From a virus: a stretch of DNA of 23,416 nt. The position numbers were made by a program, and so were the translations under genes. The stretch is taken from the IMG/VR virus record IMGVR_UViG_3300031553_000109, positions 1 through 23,416 of that record; one strand, 5' to 3'. Shown here in pieces: positions 15,412 to 23,332 of this stretch. Each line of letters begins with the position of its first letter. The stretch's first letter is position 1. The notes beneath the pieces are model-generated. The model did no database searches, was not told where the DNA came from, and saw nothing but the letters and a program-made list of their open reading frames with translations.

Positions 15412-15725
15412 TATGTTTTTCTCTGTTCGATTAAAACTTCAAGATGGTCAACTCCTTTACTACCCTCGTATTTCTTAATCCCCTTCACTTCATATATTTC
15501 TCCATCAATAATTGCCCGATCCGTCTCCTGAATATCTGCCCCCACCGCCGTATAAAGGTTATATGCTTTACCCATTATCCCTTGTGCCTGTGCTAGTTGA
15601 TTCATTTCGGCACTCAAGGGCAAAAACATTCCAGAAATTGTCCCAACTTCTTGCCAACTCGTGATGTTGATATTTGTCGGGTCAGCCGTCAATCGCTGGA
15701 TAATAGCACTTTTATTAGTTTTCAT
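15411..15725 (-). CDS. Head-tail adaptor / stopper-like protein
   Basis: A 104-residue protein: SAIIQRLTADPTNINITSWQ, EVGTISGMFLPLSAEMNQLA, KAYNLYTAVGADIQETDRAI and GEIYEVKGIKKYEG, then DHLEVLIEQRKT. The pattern of a small beta barrel with a D-x-x-x-x-D-R/E...Y-x-V-x-x-V strand set matches head-closure (SPP1 gp16-like) proteins. It begins inside the last codons of the HNH gene and ends at the gp10-like start. Position between connector and gp10 supports the role. Confidence 0.75.
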   Translation of the reverse strand: MKTNKSAIIQRLTADPTNINITSWQEVGTISGMFLPLSAEMNQLAQAQGIMGKAYNLYTAVGADIQETDRAIIDGEIYEVKGIKKYEGSKGVDHLEVLIEQRKT

Positions 15726-16287
15726 TATAAAATTCTTCTAATTGCTCTCTCGTATTATTCTTAAATCCATAAATTTTATGGAACTCTTGGTGGCATTTAT
15801 CGCAGAAAGTAATTCCGTTGTCTATGGCAAATCTTAAATCTGGGAATTGAGCGAAATTATAGATATGATGAGGGTGTAATTTCCCGCCTTTCTTTTTACA
15901 CTTTTGGCAAGTCCAACCATCTCTCGCAAATACGGCTTCTCGCCATAAACGGAACTCAATGCTATTTCTAATTTTCTTATTTTCTGGTGTTATCCCACCT
16001 TTCCAATTATAATGATTTTCACCTTTAATTGATAATCCTTGTTTAATTCTTGCTGATAATGACCTTTTATTTCCTTTATGTGCCTCACTCAGTTTTCTTC
16101 TAGTTTCTTTTGATAACTTCATTCCTTTTCTCGCTAAACTCATTTTCCCTTTAGCTTCTTCAGAGTGTTTCCTCCCTTTTAATGCCCTTCCAATCTTTTT
16201 TAATCCTTCTGGTGTTGAAAAACTTTTATGTCCTTTTTTGAATTCTGTTTTGGTATGATAACTATGTTTAGTAGGATAATTACTCAT
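15715..16287 (-). CDS. HNH homing endonuclease with NUMOD3 repeats
   Basis: A 190-residue protein. Residues 40-72 hold two NUMOD3-like DNA-binding repeats (KHSEEAKGKMSLARKG and KLSKETRRKLSEAHKG). Residues 120-170 form a complete HNH zinc domain with C127-x2-C130, the LHPHHIYNF core (His138, His140, His141), and C162-x2-C165-H166. It overlaps both head-tail genes (ATGA with the connector, 11 bases with the stopper) and is visibly AT-richer than they are, consistent with a mobile freestanding endonuclease that has inserted between two virion genes without disrupting them. Confidence 0.9.
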   Translation of the reverse strand: MSNYPTKHSYHTKTEFKKGHKSFSTPEGLKKIGRALKGRKHSEEAKGKMSLARKGMKLSKETRRKLSEAHKGNKRSLSARIKQGLSIKGENHYNWKGGITPENKKIRNSIEFRLWREAVFARDGWTCQKCKKKGGKLHPHHIYNFAQFPDLRFAIDNGITFCDKCHQEFHKIYGFKNNTREQLEEFYNEN

Positions 16288-16874
16288 ATCACAATTTTCT
16301 TATAATTTTGTAAAATATCTTTCGCTCTTTCAAAATCTTGAAGCGATGTTTCATCTTTGTAAGCTACCGAATAATCTCCTATCTTTTCACTTTTAATCTC
16401 GCCCTCCATCTCTCCGGAGAAGTTAATAACCCCTGCCACTAAGACTGTGGTCGCAAATCCTATATCAGAAGGACACAACACCGAATAGCCCCACTTGGCT
16501 TTCACTACGATGTTCTGCTCATCTTCCGTAAAGACAAGCCCGGCATCGCTTTTTAGTTTTATCCTCGTCTTGGGGATTTCATTTGTCGGATAAAGCAGAT
16601 AGTCACTAACGGCAACCGCCGTTCCGTCTATTGTCAATGTTTCAATCTCTACGCATTCGTCAATGAAAATATAAAGTTCCTCGTTTCCGTCATAGGTTTT
16701 TTCGCTTGCCACGCTATCAGCAATAAAAACCCTTCCGGTTTCTTGCTCAACATATTTCTCCATTCTAGCAATCCAATCCTCAACTTGAGGTCTAAAATAA
16801 TCCTCAATAGTATGAAGTAAATAGTTTTGAATTTGAGCAATATCTGTGTAACCTTTTGGAGATAATAACGACAT
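16284..16874 (-). CDS. Head-tail connector (gp6-like)
   Basis: A 196-residue protein. The N-terminus is helical (IAQIQNYLLHTIEDYFRPQV, then ARMEKYVEQETGRVFI), followed by a strand-rich domain (ECVEIETLTIDGTAVAVSDY, KTRIKLKSDAGLVF, NIVVKAKWGY) and a helix VLVAGVINFSG. The C-terminal KSEKIGDYSVAYKDE is a hallmark of phage head-tail connector proteins of the gp6 type. It forms the ring between portal and stopper. It follows the HNH remnant, and its leader lacks a clear Shine-Dalgarno. Confidence 0.8.
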   Translation of the reverse strand: MSLLSPKGYTDIAQIQNYLLHTIEDYFRPQVEDWIARMEKYVEQETGRVFIADSVASEKTYDGNEELYIFIDECVEIETLTIDGTAVAVSDYLLYPTNEIPKTRIKLKSDAGLVFTEDEQNIVVKAKWGYSVLCPSDIGFATTVLVAGVINFSGEMEGEIKSEKIGDYSVAYKDETSLQDFERAKDILQNYKKIVI

Positions 16875-16878
16875 AGAT

Positions 16879-17064
16879 TTAATACTTAATTATTTTAGTA
16901 TACTTTTTGGCATTGCAACTTTTACAAAGAGGTTGAATATTCTCTATATTATCCGAACCGCCCTTACTTAACGGGACAATATGGTCTTCGACTAAAGTAA
17001 TCTTAGTTTTTTTGCTTCTATTTTTCCCCGTCCAATATCCTTTTTGTCCTTTGATAAATGTCAT
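16879..17064 (-). CDS. Truncated HNH endonuclease, possible remnant
   Basis: A 61-residue protein whose C-terminal half is a clear HNH segment: [20 protein letters not shown] followed by LCKSCNAKK. The first Cys-x-x-Cys pair and the DNA-binding part expected upstream are missing, and a TAA lies in frame two codons before the ATG, so the gene is N-terminally truncated or minimal. It lies directly after a promoter and before the connector gene. It probably descends from a homing endonuclease and may be inactive. Confidence 0.6.
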
Positions 17065-17139: not shown

Positions 17140-20100
17140 TTATCTTGGAAACGGATTATAAGGACTATCCATTGGATTATAAGGATATCCTCCACTAATA
17201 CGATACTCAAGCCCTTTGGTTATTGTAGTAGCCGGTTGGTTAATTATACAATACTTCAAAGACTTGGTTATTAGCGTTCCAACCACAACCTCATAATGAA
17301 GTGATTTTTGTATCGCTGATGGAATAGTTGATACCTGATACTCAAGCGTCTTTTCAATCTTTGCCGGTGTAATAATTACACAATACTTCAGACTCTTGGT
17401 AATTGCTTGTTCGGTTAATACCTCATAACCAAGACTCTTTTCTATCTTCGCTGGAGTCGTCAGCACGCAATACTTTAGAGATTTTTGGATAGCCACCGCC
17501 GGGACAACCGCATATCTTAAAGACTTTTCTAGTTTCGTATCTGTAATGACGGCGTATTGTAAGGACTTCGTTATTCCGCTAGGCGTTGTTAGAACCCTAT
17601 AATCAAGCTCTTTAGTAATCTTGGTCGGCGTTGTTTCGACAGTATATTTCAAGGATTTCTGAACAGCATTCGGGGACACAACCACATATTTCAAAGACTT
17701 GTTAATTGCAGTAGCCGTCAAAACCTGATATTCCAAACTCTTATTAAGCCCTAGAATCGTTTTAACGGAGTATTGTAGCGTCTTTTGGATTGTAGTAGCC
17801 CCAAGGAAGATATCGTATCGTAAGGACTTGGTTAAGGCGGTTGGCGTTTGCTTGACGCAGTATTTCAAAGACTTCTGAATGGCTACTGCCGGAACTGCCA
17901 TATACCTCAAAGACTTCTCAATCTTCGTGTTAGTTAGGACATCATAAACTAAGTCCTTCTCGGTCTTAAAGCTACCTAAGAAAATGTCATATCTCAAAGA
18001 CTTGGTTTTTGCTATCGGAGTAGTAAGGATTGTATATTTAAGCGACTTCTGATCCTTGACTGGAGAAACTACATCATAGGTTAGAGATTTTTCGACCTTA
18101 ACCGGAGAAATGACATCATAAACCAAACTCTTTTCTATCTTCGGACTACCCAAAAAGATATTATATTTAAGCGACTTCGTAACCTTGGTCGGAGTAACGA
18201 TCACGCAATATTTCAATGTCTTTTGAATCGCTGTTACAGGAAGACAAGCATATCTCAAAGACTTCTCAATCTTCATTGAGGTTATAACGCAATACTTCAA
18301 ACTCTTTTGAATTACATTCGAGGTGTTAATATAATAACCAAGTTCTCTCTCTATCTTTGCCGGAGTAGCAATGGTATATTTTAACTCTCTAGTTTCTGAT
18401 TGTTCGGATCTAACTTGATACTCTAATTCTCTTTCAATCTTAGTATCGGTTCGCACCTTATAAGTTAGTGCCTTTTCAATCTTGGTAGCACCCAAGAAAA
18501 CATCGTATCGCAAAGACTTTTCAATCTTGGTTGGCGTAGTTATCACACAATATTTTAGAGTCTTGTTAATAGCTACTGCCGGAATTACCTTATAGACTAA
18601 TCCCTTTTCAATCTTGACCGCCCCTCTAACATCATAAACTAAATCCTTTTGAACATTAGTCGCACCCAAGAAAATGTCATAACGAAGCGACTTCGTTTTC
18701 TTTTCCGGAGTAGCTAGAATGGTATATTTTAAGTCCTTCTGAATCGTAACCGGTGAAGTAATATCATAAACAAGCCCCTTCTGAACCCCAACCGGATAAA
18801 CCACATCATAAATTAAACCTTTCTCAATCTTGGTTGCCCCTAAGAAAATATTATATTTTAATTCCCTTGTCTTAGCAGAAGGCGTTGTCTTAACGCAATA
18901 CTTTAGCGTCTTGTTAATCTTTACTGCCGGAGAAACTACATAGGCGAGTTCTTTATTGATAGTAACCGCACCCTTAGTCATATAGACTAAATCCTTCTCT
19001 GTCTTTACTCCACCTCTCGTCTTATATATCAAACCCTTCTCAATCTTGCTGTCAGTAACTATCGTATATTTCAAAGACTTGGTCGGCTTGGTGCTAGTGA
19101 TAATTTCGTAAATCAAACCTTTCTCTATCTTAGGACTTCCTAAAAAGATATTGTATTTTAAGGACTTTGTTATTTTCGTTGGCGTAGCAATAACGCAATA
19201 CTTTAATGTCTTGTTAATTGCTACACTTGGTAGAACTTTATAGACTAATTCTCTTTCTACTTTTACTCCTTGCCTTGTTTTATAGACCAACCCTTTTGTC
19301 TTTGCTGTTGGCGTAGTTAAAATCTGATACGCTAATTCTTTTTCTTGTTTAGCCGGAGTGGTGATAACAGCATATTTCAAGGACTTAGTCTTGCCGGTAG
19401 GAGTTTGCTTGATTGTATATTTTAATTCTTTCTGAATATCCGTAGGCGAAACAACATCATAAATCAAGCCCTTTTCAATTTTGGTGCTTCCTAAGAAAAT
19501 GTCATATTTCAAAGACTTCTCGATTTTAGTCGGAGTGGTAATGACGCAATATTTCAAGGTCTTATTTATCGCTACGCTAGGTAGGACTTTATAAATCAAT
19601 TCCCTTGTTATAGGAATCGTTGGCTTAACCTTATAGATTAAACCTTTCGTTGTCGCTGTCGGTGTCGTTAATACTTGATACTCTAATCCCTTTTCTAGTT
19701 TAGCCGGAGTTATGGTAATGGTATATTTCAAAGACTTTGTAGTCGCACTTGGCGTTGCTATTACACAATACTTCAAGGACTTTTCAATCTTGGTCGGAGA
19801 AACTACATCATAAATTAACCCTTTTTCTATCTTCGTTGAACCCAAGAAAATATCATACTTCAAACTCTTGGTCTTTGCGGTGGGCGTGGTTATGACACAA
19901 TACTTTAATGTTTTCTGAATCGCTGTTACCGGCAAGGCACAATACCTCAATGTCTTTTCAATCTTGGTGTCAGTAATTACATCGTAGATTAAACCCTTTT
20001 CTATCTTTTTAGAACCAAGAAAAATATCATACTTTAATGACTTCTCTGTTTTAGCCGGTGTCGTGATCGTGGTATATTTTAAGGACTTCTCAACCTTAAC

Positions 20101-21615
20101 ACCTAGCTTAGTTTTATATACTAATTCCTTTTCTGTTTTAACGCCTAAAGCTACTTTATAGATTAAGCCTTTTTCAATTTTAGTCGGACCAAGGAAGATG
20201 TCATACTTGAGAGATTTTTCTAGCTTGGTCGGCGTTGTGATTACACAATACTTCAAGGTTTTGTTTATGGCGACTGGGTTCAAGCAAACATATTTAAGAG
20301 ATTTAGTAGGAGCCGAAGGTGTTTTTACAATACAATACTTTAGAGATTTTTGGATCGTCTCAGTGGTCGGACCCCCTGCTGTGTAGTCTATTTCCAAAAC
20401 AGAATAGTTTGCTGTTGGGTAATCAACCAACCGATCTTCTCCCCACCCATCACCAACTTGAGTCAAGATACCAAACCTTATATTATTACCAGATACCCAA
20501 TTATCCCTATTAACAATTTCTTGAACTATATCTGTTGCCACTATGGTTTTTGCCCCAAGTGCCGAGATGTTTCCATCTGTGTGTGCTGTTGTCTTTGTTA
20601 TGTTTAGTGGACCATTATTATCTGCCCACGCCGCCGCAGAATCTACATCATCACCATATAGTTTATAACTTATCCCCCCTTCGTAATTATAGTAACAATT
20701 TACTTTTAGATTTGCCAAATCTATTGTGCACCCCTGTGGTAGATCAATCGTCTGGAATCGTAATCCACCACTCCAGTAGACTATGTCGTCAAATACATAT
20801 AATTCAATTTGGTTATTGTGCCAGTTCCCATCACTTACACGCTGGCTTCCATCGTCATTATCAGCAACGATAGACTCATTAATATCAGGAATATCAATCA
20901 AGAGGGGATACTTAATGTTATCAGTCCAAGTTTTTACCCTTGTCTTTTTATCTAAAATTTCAGCAACCTGAGGAAAGATTTTTTCAACTAAATCATATTT
21001 CTTTCTTCCGCTGACTATTTGCTCATTTCTTATTTCTTTTTCTAGCCTCACTTGATTTCTATCAGCGTCTTTTCCTAAATGTTTTTTATTAACCCCTAAA
21101 TTATGATGTTCATCTTCCTCTATTTCCCATCCAATTTCTTTTAACCCATTGGCTGTTTTTACAACTTTGAAAAATTCTACGCTTGCTGGATTCAATCTTA
21201 AATAAATATCTAAATCATTAATAACATTATCCCACCAAATTTTGTTTCCATCTATTCTCGGAAAAATACTCAATTTTAATTGTTCAACAGAAATACCACC
21301 AATTGATTTTAATTTTATTATAACATTTCCTCCTTCCTTAGAAGTATAAAATAATCCAATCTCGTTTTTCAGTATTTCTAAACTGTAAGGGGCTTTATCA
21401 ATAACAAATTTATCGCCTCTATCCTCTGGAGTTAAATCAATGTCTTTCCATTTTTCATTTTCATTTTTTGGATTTTCTTTATAATGAACCGCTCCCATTG
21501 CTTTTATCAATCTAAATTTATTTCCACCCAATGAAAAGGTTTTAGAACCCGATGTCCTTTTTTCAATAACTTCTACGCTATTTTTCGGTTGTTTAATTAT
21601 TTCTGCTGGTTTCAT
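17140..21615 (-). CDS. Giant KxLxY-repeat protein with jelly-roll-like domain
   Basis: A 1491-residue protein. Residues 1-230 are charged and strand-rich (KDIDLTPEDRGDKFVIDKAP). Residues about 245-415 (VSDGNWHNNQIELYVFDD, GGLRFQTIDLPQGCTIDLAN, YKLYGDDVDSAAAW, IVQEIVNRDNWVSGNNI, YSVLEIDYT) resemble DNRLRE/CBM96-type beta sandwiches of surface and fibre proteins. Residues 423-1476 are about 73 tandem units of 14-15 residues with invariant [KR]-x-L-x-Y, ending in a Pro/Tyr-rich tail (YPYNPMDSPYNPFPR). The alternating hydrophobics suggest one strand per unit in a long fibre or solenoid. It starts within the sulfotransferase stop (ATGA). It may be a head decoration or fibre; identity unknown. Confidence 0.8.
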   Translation of the reverse strand: MKPAEIIKQPKNSVEVIEKRTSGSKTFSLGGNKFRLIKAMGAVHYKENPKNENEKWKDIDLTPEDRGDKFVIDKAPYSLEILKNEIGLFYTSKEGGNVIIKLKSIGGISVEQLKLSIFPRIDGNKIWWDNVINDLDIYLRLNPASVEFFKVVKTANGLKEIGWEIEEDEHHNLGVNKKHLGKDADRNQVRLEKEIRNEQIVSGRKKYDLVEKIFPQVAEILDKKTRVKTWTDNIKYPLLIDIPDINESIVADNDDGSQRVSDGNWHNNQIELYVFDDIVYWSGGLRFQTIDLPQGCTIDLANLKVNCYYNYEGGISYKLYGDDVDSAAAWADNNGPLNITKTTAHTDGNISALGAKTIVATDIVQEIVNRDNWVSGNNIRFGILTQVGDGWGEDRLVDYPTANYSVLEIDYTAGGPTTETIQKSLKYCIVKTPSAPTKSLKYVCLNPVAINKTLKYCVITTPTKLEKSLKYDIFLGPTKIEKGLIYKVALGVKTEKELVYKTKLGVKVEKSLKYTTITTPAKTEKSLKYDIFLGSKKIEKGLIYDVITDTKIEKTLRYCALPVTAIQKTLKYCVITTPTAKTKSLKYDIFLGSTKIEKGLIYDVVSPTKIEKSLKYCVIATPSATTKSLKYTITITPAKLEKGLEYQVLTTPTATTKGLIYKVKPTIPITRELIYKVLPSVAINKTLKYCVITTPTKIEKSLKYDIFLGSTKIEKGLIYDVVSPTDIQKELKYTIKQTPTGKTKSLKYAVITTPAKQEKELAYQILTTPTAKTKGLVYKTRQGVKVERELVYKVLPSVAINKTLKYCVIATPTKITKSLKYNIFLGSPKIEKGLIYEIITSTKPTKSLKYTIVTDSKIEKGLIYKTRGGVKTEKDLVYMTKGAVTINKELAYVVSPAVKINKTLKYCVKTTPSAKTRELKYNIFLGATKIEKGLIYDVVYPVGVQKGLVYDITSPVTIQKDLKYTILATPEKKTKSLRYDIFLGATNVQKDLVYDVRGAVKIEKGLVYKVIPAVAINKTLKYCVITTPTKIEKSLRYDVFLGATKIEKALTYKVRTDTKIERELEYQVRSEQSETRELKYTIATPAKIERELGYYINTSNVIQKSLKYCVITSMKIEKSLRYACLPVTAIQKTLKYCVIVTPTKVTKSLKYNIFLGSPKIEKSLVYDVISPVKVEKSLTYDVVSPVKDQKSLKYTILTTPIAKTKSLRYDIFLGSFKTEKDLVYDVLTNTKIEKSLRYMAVPAVAIQKSLKYCVKQTPTALTKSLRYDIFLGATTIQKTLQYSVKTILGLNKSLEYQVLTATAINKSLKYVVVSPNAVQKSLKYTVETTPTKITKELDYRVLTTPSGITKSLQYAVITDTKLEKSLRYAVVPAVAIQKSLKYCVLTTPAKIEKSLGYEVLTEQAITKSLKYCVIITPAKIEKTLEYQVSTIPSAIQKSLHYEVVVGTLITKSLKYCIINQPATTITKGLEYRISGGYPYNPMDSPYNPFPR
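17143..20349 (-). repeat. About 73 tandem 42-45-bp coding repeats with 4-unit super-period
   Basis: The units translate to [KR]-[STGE]-L-x-Y plus 9-10 residues. Lengths follow a 15-15-14-14 pattern over much of the array. Units with DIFLG recur at unit numbers 4, 8, 12, 20, 28, then 35, 39, 43, 51, 55, 59, i.e. multiples of four with a one-unit slip between 28 and 35. Units with KTLKYC following xAI[NQ] recur about every eighth (3, 11, 19, 27, 34, 42, 50, 58, 67). DNA identity between units is much lower than protein similarity. Confidence 0.85.
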
Positions 21616-22214
21616 ATTCCTATCGTCAAATTTTCTAGCCTGAATCTACATAGTTCAGGTTTTACTACTGAAACGCATTCCTCAACATCAATTTTCCAAT
21701 CGTCGTCTTTTAATTTCTGAAATTCTTTGTTCGGATTATCTATTACATCTCTATAACTTAAAACTACCAACTGAATATCTTTTCTATTTTCCAAGTGTTC
21801 TATAATATATTTCATTAACTCATTGTATTTGACTGTCGGGAATTTCCTTTGGAAAAATGCCTCAAAACTTTGCCTAACTTCTTCTTTGTTTCTAAGCATA
21901 AAAACTATTTTGTAATTTCTAATCGGTAGATTCAAAACATCATTGAACATAACTTTTATCAATTTGCCTTTTTGTTTCTCCATAAAATCGTCTTGCCTAA
22001 CCTTTCTCATCCTCTCAATTTCGTAAAAACCATTTGGGTTTGGTTTGTAATCTTTATCACCAAATCTATCATTCATTTTATCTCTTTTATCGCTTCTTAC
22101 CGCCTCAAGTCCTCCTGTTTCTAATGCTTTCATCATCATTGAAGTTCCCGTCCGCATATATCCTGATACCACATAGGTTGTTTTATTTTCTAAAGTAAAA
22201 TTTGTCTTTTTCAT
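21612..22214 (-). CDS. Sulfotransferase-family protein
   Basis: A 200-residue protein with VVSGYMRTGTSMMMKALETG (15-34), the 5'-phosphosulfate-binding loop of PAPS-dependent sulfotransferases (SGxxRxGTSxMxxxLxxGG), and YKIVFMLRNKEEVRQSFEAF (101-120), where Arg108 and Ser116 fit the 3'-phosphate-binding motif. NPNGFYEIERM (59-69) matches the NPxGYYE segment of a family common in bacteria and phages. VLSYRDVIDNP (151-161) follows. The enzyme would transfer sulfate from PAPS to an unknown acceptor. It overlaps the upstream kinase gene by 32 bases and the downstream repeat gene by four, so all are probably made together. Confidence 0.82.
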   Translation of the reverse strand: MKKTNFTLENKTTYVVSGYMRTGTSMMMKALETGGLEAVRSDKRDKMNDRFGDKDYKPNPNGFYEIERMRKVRQDDFMEKQKGKLIKVMFNDVLNLPIRNYKIVFMLRNKEEVRQSFEAFFQRKFPTVKYNELMKYIIEHLENRKDIQLVVLSYRDVIDNPNKEFQKLKDDDWKIDVEECVSVVKPELCRFRLENLTIGI

Positions 22215-22530
22215 ATTCGTAAGGATAATCCTTGTGCTTCTTGCCTCCTTCTAAATAAATGAATCCACAATTTGTTATCTCTTGAACCTCCTCCCTCAAT
22301 TTCTTATAAGGACAAATCAGGGCAACAATTATGTCAAACCCTTGTCCTTCTATCATTTTAGCCATCCTAGCTACTCTCATATTATGTTCCCAGCGGTCTT
22401 TTTTAGAAAAGCCAGTCGGGTAAATCCCCCTTACTGTGTCACCGTCTAAAATAATAGACTTATCTGTTTTTAATTGTCTGGCTAAAGTAGTTTTCCCCGA
22501 GCCACTATTGCCTGTTACCCAAATTATCAT
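22183..22530 (-). CDS. APS kinase-like P-loop kinase (short)
   Basis: A 115-residue protein. GNSGSGKTT (7-15) is the P-loop, LDGDTVRG (28-35) the APS-binding DGDxxR motif, FSKKDRWEHNMRVA (41-54) the FSxxDRxxNxRR segment and ALICPYKKLRE the ISPYxxxR motif, all in adenylylsulfate kinase order. It would phosphorylate APS to PAPS, the sulfate donor for the next gene's product. It is shorter than typical CysC (about 170-200 residues): the region with the RDxKGLYxKA motif is missing, and only a compact C-terminus (GFIYLEGGKKHKDYPYEYE) remains. It overlaps both neighbours. A related small-molecule kinase is the alternative. Confidence 0.75.
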   Translation of the reverse strand: MIIWVTGNSGSGKTTLARQLKTDKSIILDGDTVRGIYPTGFSKKDRWEHNMRVARMAKMIEGQGFDIIVALICPYKKLREEVQEITNCGFIYLEGGKKHKDYPYEYEKDKFYFRK

Positions 22531-22909
22531 TTCTTATTTTCGTTGCTGAAATGTCCTCTAATTCTTTTGGCAATGTTATTTCTCTTATTCCCCAACCGAC
22601 CTTTCTTCCGTAGCAAACTTCCTCAATATCAGGGATAGATATTATTTTTACTTTATCTTTCCATTCTGCAAGAGCTTTTTTTATTACCCTTTTCCTTTCC
22701 AATACAGTCAAAGGATTGCTCTCTGAAATGTCTGTATTTCTAATAGCAATCAAAACCGATTTCCCTTCTTTCAAGACAGTTTCAATCAATGCCTTATGTC
22801 CTTTGTGGAAAGGCTGCCACCTTCCTACAAATAATGAATATATTTTCTTTTCGTCTTTGGGGGTAAGTTTGTAGGTAGTATCGTTAAGTTTTGTTATTGG
22901 AGTTTTCAC
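22505..22909 (-). CDS. HxGH nucleotidyltransferase (NMNAT/adenylyltransferase-like)
   Basis: A 134-residue protein starting with GTG at 22909, directly after the upstream TAA. YSLFVGRWQPFHKGHKALIE (24-43) carries the HxGH nucleotide-binding motif (His35, His38). AIRNTDISESNPLTVLERKR follows, then IPDIEEVCYGRKVGWGI, and ISATKIR (120-126) is the ISxTxxR motif. These place it among NMN- or pantetheine-phosphate-type adenylyltransferases. Its neighbours suggest it could feed the kinase with an adenylylated substrate, possibly APS, but the sequence motifs are not those of ATP sulfurylase (no RNPxHxxH or GRDHAG). The 26-base overlap with the kinase indicates coupled translation. Confidence 0.8.
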   Translation of the reverse strand: MKTPITKLNDTTYKLTPKDEKKIYSLFVGRWQPFHKGHKALIETVLKEGKSVLIAIRNTDISESNPLTVLERKRVIKKALAEWKDKVKIISIPDIEEVCYGRKVGWGIREITLPKELEDISATKIRNDNLGNRQ

Positions 22910-23332
22910 TTATTCTCTATGTAATTCAAGCTTAGGCAAATCCACATTATTCTTGTCGCTAATAACTATCCGGTCATCGGGCAGAATAAAATTATAGCAA
23001 GCGTGCTTCGTGCCTTTAATCTTGTAGCCAAAGACATAGGCCTTGACTGTGTCTTTGAAGTTCTTGAAATAGTAGGCGTGGACATTCCGGTAAAAGTGGA
23101 ACACCTGCATATTCGGCAGAACCAAGAGGTCAATCCTCCTCTTGATGTCGTCAGACTTATACATCGTAAACATCTTGACTTTGTTCCATTTTATCTCTCT
23201 GATCTGATGGAAAACCCCGTCTTTCCCGAACTGATGGAACTCCGAATCGTCCAAATAAACCACCCCCCAAACCCAGCGTTCGGGAGTAATTTCCTCCTTT
23301 TTGCCTTCTTGGCTTGTAAATGTATATTTCAT
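22910..23332 (-). CDS. Conserved phage hypothetical protein
   Basis: A 140-residue soluble protein: MKYTFTSQEGKKEEITPERW, VWGVVYLDDSEFHQFGKDGV, a basic middle (YKSDDIKRRIDLLVL) and aromatic-rich VFHFYRNVHAYYFKN, then KAYVFGYKIKG. TPERWxWGVVY...D-x-S/T-E-x-x-QFGxDGxFHQ looks like a recurring viral hypothetical family, but I cannot assign a function. It is the first gene after the hairpin at 23343-23374 and is followed without a gap by the nucleotidyltransferase. Its GC content is visibly higher than that of the cargo genes downstream. Confidence 0.7.
   Translation of the reverse strand: MKYTFTSQEGKKEEITPERWVWGVVYLDDSEFHQFGKDGVFHQIREIKWNKVKMFTMYKSDDIKRRIDLLVLPNMQVFHFYRNVHAYYFKNFKDTVKAYVFGYKIKGTKHACYNFILPDDRIVISDKNNVDLPKLELHRE

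Follow-up and report, generated by a model that had tools for sequence, protein, structure and literature searches.

Introduction

In bifunctional 3'-phosphoadenosine 5'-phosphosulfate (PAPS) synthetases, such as human PAPSS (PDB 1x6v) and the SAT/APS kinase of PDB 2gks, a nucleotidyltransferase lies next to or is fused with an adenosine 5'-phosphosulfate (APS) kinase, and the PAPS produced serves sulfotransferases. The same pathway logic, in variant form, probably underlies a viral locus in IMG/VR virus record IMGVR_UViG_3300031553_000109, of which a stretch of 23,416 nucleotides (the window, itself a fragment) was analyzed. Three overlapping genes encode an HxGH nucleotidyltransferase (NT), a short APS-kinase homolog (K) and a predicted PAPS-type sulfotransferase (ST). 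Comparison with related loci suggests that they probably constitute a phage operon for PAPS synthesis and sulfation, with NT as a compact ATP sulfurylase and the virion as the likely target. What varies relative to a PAPS synthetase is the nucleotidyltransferase, which is a domain of about 110 residues of the NadM/PPAT type and not Sat (PF01747) or CysDN, the kinase, which lacks the LID, and the phage setting.

Each of the proteins also resembles described enzymes. Archaeal NadM (PDB 1ej2, 1m8g) shares with NT the HxGH fold and the motifs GRxQPxHxGH and IS[AG]TxxR, with about 30% identity over some 110 residues. The kinase CysC (TIGR00455; PDB 7yq0, 8a8h, 2yvu) shares with K the Walker A, DGDxxR and FSxxDR motifs and, by sequence, the N-terminal core. 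The PAPS sulfotransferases (TPST1/2, Teg/StaL, SULT, Sulfotransfer_3) share with ST the P-loop of the 5'-phosphosulfate-binding (5'-PSB) site, the R-x7-S of the 3'-phosphate-binding (3'-PB) site and the fold (Z 10-13).

APS-kinase-like proteins of phages, short ones included, have been reported under the name of viral cysC. Sixty-two cysC genes of freshwater phages were described as auxiliary genes for sulfate assimilation (PMC10914622), as were cysC genes of phages from trench sediment, for which proteins of 109-135 residues were modeled (PMC9529941). The accessible portions of these two reports give assimilation as the role and mention neither an NT partner nor a sulfotransferase neighbor. 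That assignment leaves the source of APS open, and the adjacent or fused NT is likely the missing step; sulfotransferases are the likely consumers of PAPS, and genomic context points to sulfation over assimilation. In the literature searched, which covered few subscription papers, there was no description of the NT partner or its fusion to APS kinase, nor of a phage sulfation operon or virion sulfation.

Organization of the Locus and Proposed Pathway

Most genes of the window are on the minus strand; an open reading frame (ORF) of 140 amino acids comes first, then NT, K, ST, a gene for a protein of 1491 amino acids (RP), and head-tail and tail genes. NT (22505..22909, minus strand) begins with GTG and encodes 134 amino acids, K (22183..22530, minus strand) encodes 115 and ST (21612..22214, minus strand) encodes 200; RP (17140..21615, minus strand) follows. 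NT and K overlap by 26 bases, K and ST by 32 and ST and RP by 4. An earlier note on this DNA had described three overlapping ORFs, with overlaps of 26 and 32 bases, ahead of virion genes; the ORFs and overlaps were borne out by re-reading, and PHROG matches and relatives confirm that virion genes do come next. The motifs that it listed are likewise present, with GRWQPFHKGH and ISATKIR in NT, GNSGSGKT, DGDTVR and FSKKDR in K, and SGYMRTGTSMMM in ST. NT, K and ST are not chance ORFs, as seen from Pfam matches for the first two and from homologs and structure for ST. Because the genes overlap, the three proteins are probably translated together.

In the proposed pathway, NT would convert sulfate and ATP to APS and pyrophosphate; it would be an ATP sulfurylase unlike Sat and CysDN, with a fold of the NadM/PPAT type. 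K, given its homology to APS kinases, would phosphorylate the 3'-hydroxyl of APS with ATP, to yield PAPS and ADP. ST, in which the fold and PAPS-binding residues are observed, would then transfer sulfate from PAPS to an acceptor and release 3'-phosphoadenosine 5'-phosphate. The acceptor would most likely be RP, encoded next, or a glycan on RP. Comparison supports the suggestion of the earlier note that the phage makes and uses its own sulfate donor, with the acceptor as the inferred part.

Linkage of NT to APS Kinases and Sulfotransferases

The searches were limited to the 80 best loci of each collection, the contigs are fragments, and L-numbers (such as L209) label the loci compared in this analysis. 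A search with NT only, made without reference to K, returned 80 viral and 80 genomic loci. K is present in the same locus as NT in 149 of 164 NT loci, and the two form one fused ORF in 63, with both domain orders represented. Most of the 15 NT loci without K are NadM-like and have no GRxVG motif. NT is fused to full APS kinases in L102, L046, L119 and L108 and lies near one in L021, and these kinases score 153-201 bits, over the apsK cut-off of 138.7. PHROG 10255 unites a K-like half with an NT-like half, and K/NT fusions of this kind occur in Stenotrophomonas phages DLP_6 and Suzuki and in Clavibacter phage 33. The linkage and the fusion to APS kinases are the strongest sign that APS would be the product of NT.

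In dereplicated lineages, both of phages and of genomes, Sulfotransfer_3 and Sulfotransfer_1 rank above all other Pfam families among the ORFs no more than 1.8 kb from NT/K. Sulfotransfer_3 is found in 11 of 32 viral records, nearly always close to NT/K. Of the ORFs at most 1.8 kb from NT/K, 8 of the 97 viral ones and 6-7 of the 81 genomic ones are sulfotransferases; at 3.5 kb or more they make up at most 1 of 135 ORFs and are not among the listed families (near-versus-far Fisher p 0.002, which is approximate because the compared ORFs come from shared loci). The sulfotransferase families counted are diverse, some at sub-threshold scores, and a list seeded by phmmer, contaminated by other families, was left out of the counts. 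Other common neighbors of NT/K are glycosyltransferases and sugar-nucleotide enzymes. NT, K and sulfotransferases are thus found together in homologous neighborhoods, the point on which the earlier note had suggested that its reading could fail.

The association is also seen across genomes. Among 380 genomes of Patescibacteria, Sulfotransfer_3 occurs in 5 of the 9 with NT and in 18 of the 371 without NT (p 0.0005, with the center genome left out), and NadM-like matches have no link with sulfotransferases in the same 380. Fifty genomes with NT include 31 with a sulfotransferase over the cut-off, 3 with Sat and 20 with a CysD-like match. In at least 12 of the 50, three of them from Pelagibacteraceae with strong sulfotransferases, a sulfotransferase over the cut-off was found and neither Sat nor a CysD-like match was, which is suggestive only, because metagenome-assembled and single-cell genomes are incomplete.

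Some of these loci have further features. In eight viral records (L027, L029, L030, L049, L054, L065, L086 and L018), the next gene downstream of NT encodes DUF2061, predicted to be a small membrane protein; one of the eight matches scores below the family cut-off. In three of three Pelagibacteraceae genomes (L112:6328-7329, L123:6828-7811 and L134:6327-7364), NT/K adjoins a short protein that resembles the pyruvate kinase barrel. At L011:5664-6860, what seems to be a fusion of a sulfotransferase and a methyltransferase-like domain lies upstream of NT and K.

NT as a Candidate ATP Sulfurylase

NT belongs to the HxGH superfamily by profile (Pfam CTP_transf_like, PF01467; 39.6 bits, 7.4e-10, cut-off 21), by its HxGH and ISxTxxR motifs and by fold. 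An AlphaFold2 model built from 76 relatives has a pLDDT of 87, with residues 1-20 poorly determined, and structure comparison identifies its fold as that of NMNAT and PPAT. The best NCBIfam names for NT are adenylyltransferases for nicotinamide mononucleotide (NMN), all far below their own cut-offs; for NadM (TIGR01527) the score is 47.3 bits, below the curated cut-off of 181.2. Sat (PF01747) gave no match to NT at E up to 1, and NT has GRWQPFHKGH instead of the Sat motif QxRNxxHxxH. ATP sulfurylase is not among the structural matches listed for NT, a list that is limited to Foldseek candidates and excludes nothing. The description of the first enzyme in the earlier note, as having NMNAT-type and not ATP-sulfurylase motifs, agrees with these profile and fold results.

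Residues G29, R30, Q32, H38, G101, R102 and R126 are invariant across the NT family, and R57 is near-invariant. In NMNAT structures NMN is bound by a segment that separates the core from the [SG]xTxxR motif, which is ISATKIR in NT; all members aligned with NadM-type proteins are without this segment. Two arginines of the NT family are absent from NadM-type proteins: R57 in IAIR[DN]T, where R[DN]T replaces the GS.Q of NadM, and R102, which together with G101 lies in the added motif YGRxVGY. The shortening suggests a small second substrate, and the two added arginines would suit an oxyanion. The substrate of NT, left as an open question in the earlier note, is now probably sulfate. The support is comparative, and sulfate is the likeliest co-substrate because fusions with full APS kinases occur among NT relatives, because the NMN segment is missing and because genomes with NT and sulfotransferases occur without a recognizable ATP sulfurylase.

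An evenly balanced case can be made for a broader proposal, in which NT represents a third type of ATP sulfurylase, of about 110 residues and NadM/PPAT-like fold, that serves sulfation and not assimilation. It would occur widely, in phages and in Patescibacteria, Omnitrophota, Pelagibacteraceae and Rhizobiales, and with a LID-less kinase and a small ST it would allow phages to sulfate their own virions. If this is true, sulfation is the purpose for which phages make PAPS, a third type is added to the enzymes that activate sulfate, and sulfation without Sat or CysDN is feasible in reduced genomes, those of Pelagibacteraceae and Patescibacteria among them. Virion sulfation would then be a phage modification for which the literature searched holds no report.

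The Kinase and the Sulfotransferase

K matches Pfam APS_kinase (PF01583) with 68.1 bits and an E-value of 1.1e-18 over profile positions 3-99 of 152 (cut-off 21.1), and carries the Walker A, DGDTVR and FSKKDR motifs of APS kinases. Its nearest solved chains in a PDB sequence search are APS kinases (7yq0, 5e-15). APS kinases are therefore the best match in Pfam, NCBIfam and PDB alike, and the closer match to another kinase family that the earlier note had allowed for did not emerge.

Relatives of ST are harder to detect. Scans of IMG/VR with the single K or ST protein returned no relatives, because such scans reach close relatives only; a tblastn search with ST returned nothing usable from phages or plasmids, and no ST relatives were found among 193 Omnitrophota genomes. 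A Patescibacteria genome encodes a relative with 42-43% identity, and a two-sequence alignment of this protein and the window ST, used as a query, led to 20 viral loci. The ST homologs found have 42-54% identity, and RTGTSMMM, E65, K87, R108 and S116 are invariant in 18 aligned members. The R108-x7-S116 spacing is that of the 3'-PB site in SULT structures, and RTGTS corresponds to the 5'-PSB loop.

The AlphaFold2 model of ST has a pLDDT of 86 and a pTM of 0.85, and its 50 best VIA-align matches are all sulfotransferases (Z 10.3-13.2). The top match is TPST1 (Z 13.2, 168 residues, rmsd 3.3), with others, polyketide-type sulfotransferases among them, tied with it within about 1 Z unit. As modeled, ST folds as a PAPS sulfotransferase with PAPS-binding residues, and would be expected to have the corresponding activity.

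RP as the Candidate Acceptor

RP consists of an N-terminal domain of about 420 amino acids, which is kept beside ST in other phages, and a C-terminal region of about 1070 amino acids with 73 L-x-Y motifs, in repeat units that resemble KSLKYTVITTPTKIE. Four phages closely related to that of the window (L169, L199, L200 and L170) have RP next to head-tail genes in the same order as in the window, and their contigs stop short of the position of ST. The RP relatives in this position keep the repeats, and the N-terminal domain differs in L200.

In nine phage loci (L206-L214) and in one Patescibacteria contig, a window-type ST abuts a protein that has the N-terminal domain of RP. In L213 the genes run from the major head protein through an NT-K fusion and ST to an RP-type protein. 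L209 has a K-NT fusion, whose APS kinase domain is complete, then ST, an RP-type protein and tail sheath, and L207 has K, ST and an RP-type protein. ST is therefore tied to RP, with NT/K apparently as an accessory supply module. RP is most likely the acceptor, or the carrier of an acceptor such as a glycan on RP.

Sulfation of the L-x-Y repeats was considered and rejected, since RP-type proteins beside ST elsewhere have no repeats and the fold of ST is not specific to TPST. Because the repeats are absent from these other proteins, the N-terminal domain is the better acceptor candidate.

At L205:12459-17447, in Patescibacteria genome G357, an ST and RP-type pair lies at the contig end, by glycosyltransferase-like genes. 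The pair may be a prophage or a phage remnant, which hints that Patescibacteria host such phages.

Opposing Evidence and Alternative Explanations

Several observations weigh against a PAPS-synthesis-and-sulfation operon directed at the virion. NT is closest in sequence and fold to NMNAT and PPAT, not to Sat, and gaps in the genomes surveyed temper the absence of Sat and CysD. The window K scores 72 bits against the NCBIfam apsK cut-off of 138.7, is about 60 residues shorter than CysC and, by alignment, is without the LID (KGLY...FTG) of canonical APS kinases. The LID is also absent from many phage, Patescibacteria and Rhizobiales members of the family, and present in L209 and others; as judged from the alignment, its loss is a family trait and not a truncation peculiar to the window. 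The unusual shortness of K, correctly remarked on in the earlier note, is explained by this LID-less form being common to many relatives. ST, at only 200 amino acids, is below the Pfam cut-offs for PAPS sulfotransferases, with a sub-threshold score of 18.5 bits against 27 for Sulfotransfer_3 (E 0.0026). Most ST-RP loci were found without NT on the contig, so that ST may often use host PAPS, and RP is a putative virion component by the position of its gene.

The alternative that survives best keeps the same enzymes and changes the target: ST would sulfate the host, at a surface glycan or a component of the wall, for instance to exclude superinfection. Many NT/K modules lie amid genes for glycosyltransferases, epimerases and GDP-mannose dehydratase, and the module is flanked by TPR-sulfotransferases in Rhizobiales genomes. 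No glycosyltransferase was recognized among the window proteins, however, and ST abuts an RP-type protein both in the window and in L206-L214, often inside virion clusters. A host target is unlikely on this evidence, if clearly the least unlikely of the alternatives.

It is improbable that NT activates, in place of sulfate, a different oxyanion, a small phosphate ester or the like, and that K makes a 3'-phosphorylated analog of PAPS for a non-sulfating P-loop transferase. The NT family is indeed without Sat motifs, but full APS kinases recur as its partners, as do sulfotransferases with the residues that bind PAPS.

Slightly less probable again is a function in NAD or ADP-ribose metabolism, with NT as an NMN adenylyltransferase and K as a nucleoside-type kinase, by which NAD would be rebuilt or an NAD-depleting defense countered. 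In Stenotrophomonas phage Suzuki (L003:4561-6321), which is cultured and thus tractable, genes for a Sulfotransfer_4 protein, a NADAR protein and a K-NT fusion are consecutive. The NADAR gene ahead of the fusion favors an NAD function, as does the proximity of NT to archaeal NMNAT in sequence and fold; the NADAR gene also has the Sulfotransfer_4 protein beside it, however, K is APS-kinase-like and relatives of NT are fused to full APS kinases. NAD salvage as the principal explanation was rejected on the NadM score (47 against 181) and the absent NMN-binding segment.

Least probable of all is that K, and perhaps NT, supplies PAPS to host CysH for cysteine, as the assimilatory role given to viral cysC in the accessible portions of published work would suggest (PMC10914622, PMC9529941), because the operon runs into a sulfotransferase and a virion-cluster gene and not into cysH, and because the top neighbor families of NT/K are sulfotransferases and glycan genes, with PAPS reductase not among them.

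Other Features of the Window

The 140-amino acid ORF (22910..23332, minus strand) is the first visible gene of the run, and its stop codon abuts the GTG of NT. It has no family assigned, and profile searches gave no family match below E 0.08. Among the window proteins scanned with PHROGs there was no PAPS reductase (cysH), the window being a fragment. The head-tail adaptor gene (16284..16874, minus strand) matches phrog_442 (1.8e-15) and shows the operon to lie in the cluster of virion genes. Two ORFs for HNH endonucleases lie among the head-tail genes, at 16879-17064, a fragment of 61 amino acids, and at 15715-16287, both on the minus strand. In L170, an HNH ORF is found at another position of the same head-tail cluster.

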